NCBI GenBank assembly: GCA_002728675.1
Contig: PBVL01000048.1
Coordinates: 9,137-50,097 of the forward strand
Direction of reading: 5' to 3'
Origin: Gammaproteobacteria bacterium
Lineage (GTDB): Bacteria > Pseudomonadota > Gammaproteobacteria > Pseudomonadales > Azotimanducaceae
DNA: 40,961 nucleotides
This document shows positions 35,473-40,961 of the stretch, in pieces. The notes under the pieces are model-generated. The model was not told where the DNA came from. It was given only the letters and a program-made list of their open reading frames with translations, and did not search any database. How positions within the stretch are numbered: position 1 is the first letter of the stretch; each line of letters starts with the position of its first letter. The translations under genes were made by a program, and so were the position numbers.

Positions 35473-36108
35473 CTATCGGACGGTCCGCGCAATCGAGTTT
35501 GCGTAGTAGCGGCAGAGCTTCCGGCGCAGTGGATGGTCGATCAGCGTATAGCCGCCGTCGCGTCTGTCCAGCATTCCACGGTTGACCATGATCCGGAGCG
35601 CGTTCGCGAGCGTGCCGAGCTTTGGGCGTTCGTCCGACTTCATTGCACCACCGCCCGCGATGATCCTGTCGATCAGGTCGCTGACCCGCCGGACGATGTC
35701 GCTCGCGGCCACGTGAACGCGATAGACGAACCGGGAGAACCAACGCTCAATCTAGTAGCCGATGCGGAAGTAGATGAACACGTTGAAGGCAGGCACGATT
35801 TCGCTCGCGTACGCGTGCACCCGGGACTGCAACACGTCACGCGGCACGTGCTCCGCAGTCGCTTGCGCCTCAATCGCGTCGAGCACCTGTCTGTCCCAGG
35901 CCAGCCGGTCGATCAGGACCTGGCGCCTGGTTCGCTGAAACGGGCGAATCTTGATCTGCAGCCCGAGGTTTACCCGCTCGATCGAACGGAGCAGGCGGGA
36001 GCGCAGGTACTATCGCGTGCCGGGCAAGAGCACGCTGCCGATGACCGCATACGCGCAAACGAGCGTCATCAGCGCGACGAGCCAAAGCGGCAGTTCAACC
36101 GTCGTCAT
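35473..36108 (-). pseudogene. Decayed glycerol-3-phosphate acyltransferase (PlsB-like): two amber codons, catalytic core deleted
   Basis: A single frame of 212 codons joins the two ends of a PlsB-type acyltransferase. The N-terminus reads MTTVELPLWLVALMTLVCAY, then (after a TAG) YLRSRLLRSIERVNLGLQIK, IRPFQRTRRQVLIDRLAWDR and SEIVPAFNVFIYFRIGY. A second TAG and ERWFSRFVYRVHVAA follow. It then jumps directly to a C-terminal segment, LANALRIMVNRGMLDRRDGG and CRYYANSIARTV. The whole central acyltransferase domain with its His-x4-Asp motif and substrate-binding blocks is absent. Both ambers (36010-36012 and 35752-35754) stand where I recall Trp in relatives, consistent with TGG-to-TAG changes. The product cannot be active; another acyltransferase must exist elsewhere in the genome. 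Confidence 0.82.
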
Positions 36109-38881: not shown

Positions 38882-39700
38882 ATGGCACGACCACTCAGAA
38901 TCGCGGCGGTCGGCGAGTGTTGTCTGGATCACTACACCGGTGAGCAGACGCCCCGCCTCGGCGGCATCACCTACAACTTCGCCCTGCATGCGGCCCGGGC
39001 GTTCGAGAACGCCGAGATTCACCTGATCTCGTCGGTCGGCCACGACGCGCGGGACGCCTTCGTCGGCGAACTCGACGCGGCGGGCGTCCACCACGATCTC
39101 GCGGCTGCGGAGCGCACGCCGTCGCTCGGCATTCGGTTGAACGACGCCGGCGAGCGAACGTTCTTCGATTATGACCCCGGCGGTCTCCTCGACTGGGAAC
39201 CCACAGCGTCACAGCGCGAGACCATCGAGTCCGCCGACTATGTCGTGCTGACCCGTTACCACGAGATCGCATCGCTCTTCGAGCGGCTGGTCCGTCTGCC
39301 GACCCGAGGTCAGCGTGTGGTCGACTTTGCGGACATCTCGAACGCGCAGTCAGCGGAACTCCCGAGGATCGTCGCTGATCATGGTCTCGCGGATGTCTGC
39401 ATCTTCGGTCTTGCGCCACATGAGACGGCCGCGCGAACCTGGCTCACATCCCTCGCGCGAGACCACGCGGGGCTGTTTGTCATCACACTCGCGAGCGAAG
39501 GCGCGGTTGCAGTCGAGCAATCGACGACGACGCATCAGCCGGCGTTTCCGGTCGCGGAAGTTGTCGACACCACGGGCGCGGGGGACTGCTTCGCTGCGCA
39601 TTTCCTCAGTCGCTGGTGTACCGAAGGCGACGTGGGTCAGGCGCTCACTGACGGATGTTTTGCCGCTAGTCAGATCATTCAGCGCCGCGGAGCGAGCTGA
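38882..39700 (+). CDS. PfkB-family carbohydrate kinase (fructoselysine 6-kinase-like)
   Basis: This 272-residue ribokinase-fold enzyme starts LRIAAVGECCLDHYTGEQTP, has the LGGITYNFALHAARAF signature with the Gly-Gly substrate motif, and ends with VVDTTGAGDCFAAHFLSRW. That last block carries the anion hole and the catalytic Asp. The short length and CCLDHY opening resemble fructoselysine 6-kinase (FrlD) more than ribokinase. No frlB-type deglycase is present, so the sugar substrate is uncertain. The ribosome site is weak, and a TATGAT element sits 6 bases before the ATG, so leaderless translation is conceivable. The 3' end overlaps the convergent MFS gene by 26 bases. Confidence 0.85.
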   Translation: MARPLRIAAVGECCLDHYTGEQTPRLGGITYNFALHAARAFENAEIHLISSVGHDARDAFVGELDAAGVHHDLAAAERTPSLGIRLNDAGERTFFDYDPGGLLDWEPTASQRETIESADYVVLTRYHEIASLFERLVRLPTRGQRVVDFADISNAQSAELPRIVADHGLADVCIFGLAPHETAARTWLTSLARDHAGLFVITLASEGAVAVEQSTTTHQPAFPVAEVVDTTGAGDCFAAHFLSRWCTEGDVGQALTDGCFAASQIIQRRGAS

Positions 39701-40849
39701 CCATGTTTTTCGATGCGTGCGCGGCCAGGATTCCCAGCGCCGCCAGAACAAGCGCGGGCACCAGTACAAGGCCGGGGTTACCCATTCCGTCGACAAGCAG
39801 CCCACCGGCGAGTGGGATGACGAAGCCAAGCAGATAGCCGACCGCGAAAAGACCGGCCGAGAGTGACGGTGCCGTCTCGACAGTCGCGATCTGCGGGACA
39901 AGCCCTACAACCTGAATGAGCTGCACGCAGGTGGCAATGCCCAGTGCAAACGCCGCGATGAGCGTGAACCAGCCGCTTCCCGTCATCACACCAATCAGCG
40001 CCAGCGCAACCCCCAGGCCATCACCACGATCGGCCCGCGTTTCCCGATGAGCCATCGCGCAAGCGCAATCATCGACAACGAGCCGACAACCTGAGCACCA
40101 TTGAAGACAAGCAGGTACGTCGCAAGGCGCTCCTCCTGTCCCTGATGCGCGAGGATCGTAGCGAGATAGGCATTGGTACCGAAGTACCCCGCCGACGCCG
40201 CCCCAAGGATGACGCCGAGATACCAGAGTCGAGGCAAGCGCCACGGCGGGTTGGCGGTCGGTGCCGTGCCAGACGCTGCTCCGGCCACCAGTTTCGTTCT
40301 GTGCGCCACGACAATTGCCGCCACGACCAGCAGCGCCGGCGCCGACCAGACTGCAAGCACCCCGCGCCAGCTTCCGTCCACAAGCGGCAGCACAACGGGC
40401 AGCGTGAACCCCGCGCCGACGAACTCCCCCATCAGCATCCCGTTCATGTAGACAGCCGAGCCGAGCGCGGCGTAGCCGGGTGTCCATCTCAGCACGATCG
40501 CCGGCAGCGATGGCTGCATGACGGCAACGGCAAGCCCCGTCAGCACCGTGCCGACGAAGAGCAGGGCGAGCGGCGGCGCGGCCCCACGCAGGGTCGACGC
40601 CGCTGCCAGGATTACAAGCGCTCCACAGAGCGCGGCAAGCGGACCAAACCGCGCGATGATCAACGCCCCTGGCAACGCACCGAGCGACAGCATCAGCACC
40701 GGCAGGGTCGTCAGCGCCCCGACGCCTGTCTGACCAAGGGACAGCTCGGACTGAATCCCCGGCGCGAGCGCGGGAATCACCAGAATCGGCAAACGCAGGT
40801 AAAGCCCGGCGAACCAGAGCAGAACGAGTGGAATGACGCGACTCAACAT
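39675..40849 (-). pseudogene. MFS transporter (CynX/NimT-like) interrupted by a -1 frameshift
   Basis: Frame 1 from the ATG at 40849 encodes about ten membrane segments: VIPLVLLWFAGLYLRLPILV at the start, YMNGMLMGEFVGAGFTLPVV midway and KRGPIVVMAWG at its end near 40015. It then hits a stop, while the next frame continues the protein as ALALIGVMTGSGWFTLIAAF to a stop at 39675. The break lies at a run of five G on the coding strand (CCCCC at 40010-40014); one additional G would restore AWGVALALIG. This is a typical homopolymer lesion and may be a sequencing error rather than a true pseudogene. The repaired protein would be about 391 residues, the normal family length. The transported substrate is probably a small organic anion. 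Confidence 0.78.
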
Positions 40850-40961
40850 CGTGGCGTGCTGTCCTTGAAGCGACGGCAGTCTGACACAGCGGCGCCCGCA
40901 CCGGCTGCCGTGGGGCCATACGACGAACTCCGCGCAACGGCGTAAAGTGGGTGCAGCAAAT

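Follow-up and report, generated by a model that had tools for sequence, protein, structure and literature searches.

Two kinds of protein provide the closest described systems for the locus reported here: the PlsB glycerol-3-phosphate acyltransferase (TIGR03703), and a set of shorter PlsB-related acyltransferases of about 465–476 residues in which PF01553 is combined with PF19277. An example of the short kind is WP_011536725.1 of Ruegeria sp. TM1040, annotated as a 1-acyl-sn-glycerol-3-phosphate acyltransferase. The PF01553 acyltransferase domain is the part that carries the HX4D motif. A search of the literature found no related publication. The copy described here has both of its ends in common with the short proteins, in the same order and in one frame, whereas about 259 central residues are absent and two internal stops are present; with PlsB, in turn, the remnant and an intact short relative are only distantly homologous. 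From these comparisons, the segment 36108–35473 is very probably an ordinary pseudogene of an accessory PlsB-related glycerolipid acyltransferase.

The window, that is, the whole stretch of 40,961 nucleotides that was analysed, contains on its minus strand, from 36108 to 35473, a single register with two internal TAG codons whose translation corresponds to both ends of a single protein. It starts with an ATG at 36108 and finishes with a terminal stop at 35475–35473, likewise TAG; the internal ones are located at 36010–36012 (codon 33) and 35752–35754 (codon 119). With both read through, the register comprises 211 residues, and the 633 bp that are left of the gene are free of frame shifts, with a third-position GC of 0.83. 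An earlier note on this DNA had given the register, its strand, its coordinates and the two amber codons correctly, and had also rightly described a fusion of two ends, although its lengths of about 120 and 75 residues have to be replaced by about 138 and 73. The retained N-terminal end (residues 1–137, 35698..36108) is 52–59% identical to five relatives from the same family, and the retained C-terminal end (73 residues, 35476..35694) 32–39% identical to them.

The assignment to the short family is based on homology of both ends to the same intact members. When the genome of the window and those of its relatives, 58 in all, were searched, a 474-residue open frame of the genome G029 matched residues 2–137 of the register with 59% identity (E 6.4e-53) and residues 135–207 with 34% (E 4.8e-7), the ends being in the correct order; this is far above the chance level. 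In the intact G029 protein (465 residues), PF01553 covers positions 147–272 (57.5 bits) and GPAT_C positions 317–464. A Pfam search of the 211-residue register gave nothing meaningful (a single match, E 0.24); since PF01553 in particular has no match, the window copy is to be classified as a remnant of the short family and not as a working member. The gene had previously been called PlsB-like and reduced to its two ends, and the origin of the ends from one acyltransferase family is borne out. PlsB itself is rejected as its identity: the intact G029 protein scores 131 and 136 bits with two PlsB models whose cut-offs are 618.5 and 610, which makes the family a shorter one that is related to PlsB. 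The remnant obtains 16 bits with TIGR03703, far short of the curated cut-off of 618.5.

In comparison with the intact copies of G029, G087, G088, G089 and G090, the window copy reaches Asp138 and resumes past position 397, with 259 residues (about 777 bp) lost in frame in each of the five comparisons. The missing stretch includes the entire PF01553 domain and part of GPAT_C, which agrees with the early impression that everything catalytic is gone. The deletion had been recognized as in frame, with a joint near 35715; protein alignment moves the inferred joint by 18 bases, to Asp codon 138 at 35697–35695. This codon is compatible with both sides of the joint in G087–G090, while the N side in G029 is Asn and the C side is Glu in 8 of the 13 relatives shown. 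Recombination at a short repeat is a possible origin, as the Asp codon fits both sides; the source genus is represented by this genome alone. The maintenance of the frame had been regarded as unexpected for random decay. However, a third of deletions preserve the frame by chance alone, and no special reason is required; the case is a warning not to take an in-frame internal deletion as a mark of retained function.

Regarding other copies, the earlier note had proposed a search for an intact one elsewhere in the genome. A full-length PlsB lies on a separate contig, C3 (804 bits), and for the short kind the matches listed at E 1e-10 contain this copy alone. In the family, at least 8 of 206 genomes hold the short kind with at least 49% identity among the matches listed. 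Five of these eight have full open frames (G029, G087, G088, G089 and G090), the copy of G022 is cut by a contig end, and two are broken, namely those of the window genome and of G166. The G166 copy (L058 5859–7229, minus strand) retains the middle; its defects, two frame shifts and a TAG that replaces a Gln of the relatives, differ from those of the window copy. A draw of 390 genomes from the order yielded seven matches, the own genome included, of which five were strong (51–55% identity, in frames of 469–493 residues) and one was weak (32%, in a frame of 1155). A shortened version was absent from the matches listed for the sets of 58, 206 and 390 genomes, which overlap. Relatives are also present in Ruegeria and Tritonibacter, and an alignment-based scan of contigs from named genomes found 588 stretches encoding a relative, the best 80 of which were kept. 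By their titles, these 80 come mostly from metagenome genomes of proteobacteria and desulfobacteria, and a few belong to Acidobacteria, Planctomycetes and other groups; each has one segment spanning the stretch absent in the window copy, in a set that is biased toward complete copies by its ranking by match. A scan of the named-genome contigs with the 211-residue register alone detected no relative, its short exact patterns being probably too strict.

An alignment of 79 sequences was prepared from the 80 loci by omitting eight (shorter than 440 residues or with no stop before the contig end) and adding seven copies. Three of the omitted loci (L095, L140 and L151) have one internal stop each within the aligned stretch, and two of them come from Olavius algarvensis symbionts. 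In this alignment, 77 of the 79 relatives have Trp at the position of codon 33 and 70 have it at that of codon 119, as had been suspected from the sequence alone. TAG is an ordinary stop in the window: it terminates 5 of the 15 Pfam-supported genes tabulated, including the neighbouring PhyH gene, and recoding is not indicated by this usage. A CUA anticodon was not seen at the 28 tRNA matches of the genome, a set which is incomplete (Asp and Lys tRNAs are absent). Of all nonsense changes that could arise in the register, Trp codons account for between 17% under equal rates and 35% when transitions are weighted fourfold, so that two of two such changes at Trp have a chance of about 3–12%, which is mildly uncommon. 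Two nonsense changes correspond to an expectation of approximately 66 substitutions, an estimate whose margin is very wide.

The age of the loss was approached through divergence. The window branch measures 0.70 in the tree of the 79 relatives, against a median of 0.17, in a genome which is generally far from its relatives. In trees of five genomes (G090 was omitted, its longest PlsB frame being cut short at 490 residues), the ratio of the remnant branch to that of G029 is 1.44, compared with 0.98 for PlsB and 1.17 for GyrB. The sites unique to the window genome (G000) and to G029 number 20 and 15 in the remnant, 58 and 70 in PlsB (two of the G000 sites read X), and 46 and 38 in GyrB; the remnant does not differ significantly from either control (Fisher p 0.25 and 0.84, respectively). 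Of the N-terminal sites that are invariant in five close relatives, the window copy departs at 13 of 67, two being the TAGs, and G029 at 4 of 58; for the C-terminal end the figure is 4 of 20 in both. As the divergence is not significantly above that of the two control genes, the loss is probably recent. The measures disagree somewhat, and recent loss with slight relaxation is the simplest reading.

Three alternatives to a pseudogene have to be weighed. The organism's gene may be intact, its middle having been lost in the assembly and two of its bases called wrongly. The quality of the genome (252 contigs, 91.45% complete, 7.57% contamination) lends something to this idea, as does an MFS gene at the window's end that is also apparently frame-shifted, but the matches listed at E 1e-10 place the missing middle on none of the other contigs, except for the PlsB match, and a deletion plus two miscalls would presumably be needed together; an artefact is unlikely. 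The two ends might instead derive from different genes joined by a rearrangement, for which the poorer match of the C-terminal end (32–39% against 52–59%) could be invoked. Nonetheless, the same contrast exists between intact relatives (62% and 40% for G029 and G087), both ends lie inside one open frame of G029, with the single frames of other relatives equally contrary, and separate trees place each end with G029 and G087–G090 with weak to fair support (0.20–0.83). The alignment of both ends to this one frame also settles the question, raised earlier, of whether they belong to different families, and makes a rearrangement scarcely credible. The remaining alternative, also put forward in the earlier note, is a non-enzymatic membrane stub that is retained through readthrough of the two TAGs. 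Apart from them, the register is open and keeps its frame, and the changes in it do not significantly exceed those of the control genes, although the branch of the remnant is somewhat longer than in PlsB and GyrB, and long in the tree of 79 relatives. Against a stub, TAG is a normal stop here, no CUA tRNA appears at the matches of the incomplete tRNA set, and the matches listed for the three overlapping sets of genomes include no similar shortened form. A retained stub is therefore very improbable, and it is even more doubtful that the fused ends are still expressed by double readthrough as a small non-enzymatic membrane protein.

The pseudogene is favoured by the presence of both ends in one intact frame of G029, the two TAGs at conserved Trp positions and the loss of the domain, disabling defects by comparison with intact relatives. 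It is also favoured by the widespread full-length relatives, the separate PlsB, the use of TAG as a stop and the lack of a CUA anticodon among the 28 tRNA matches, as well as by the differently broken copy of G166 and the patchy presence of the short kind (at least 8 of 206 genomes, two of them broken). Against it, the open 633 bp, the third-position GC of 0.83 and the lack of a significant excess of changes would also fit constraint, and the coincidence of both nonsense changes with Trp is mildly uncommon; the site counts are small enough to suit a young pseudogene equally well. The ancestral gene would have had about 465 codons and encoded an accessory PlsB-related glycerolipid acyltransferase. 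In this lineage, the comparisons show two kinds of lesion by which the gene was very probably inactivated: about 777 bp were lost from its interior, and with them the acyltransferase domain in its entirety, and two Trp codons became stops. The full-length PlsB that the genome retains is presumably the reason why this was tolerated. The old start, if translated, would now yield a 32-residue peptide, and the sequence comparisons made contain no pointer to a function of the remnant. Beyond annotation the case matters little: it is a clear case of a lineage that has lost an accessory lipid acyltransferase while keeping PlsB and, together with G166, a hint that a patchily distributed gene is lost repeatedly.

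As to the surroundings, 13 window frames were searched against 87 loci with a threshold of E 1e-10 (two of the 13 have no Pfam match, and their strand may have been misassigned). The immediate neighbours, a luciferase-like gene and the PhyH gene, had no match beside intact copies; matches were found for a carboxyltransferase and an MFS gene in L058 and for an ABC exporter in L057. A less strict comparison of open frames, covering nine loci, also matched an enoyl-CoA hydratase and ABC genes in L057. The MFS transporter gene (39675–40961, minus strand) is the apparently frame-shifted one: its first and last parts are in different frames, both match one open frame in L058, and it may be another pseudogene or reflect an error in the consensus. 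In Ruegeria sp. TM1040 (L022 3992–5422), the intact acyltransferase gene is flanked by meaA and ccrA, genes of the ethylmalonyl-CoA pathway.
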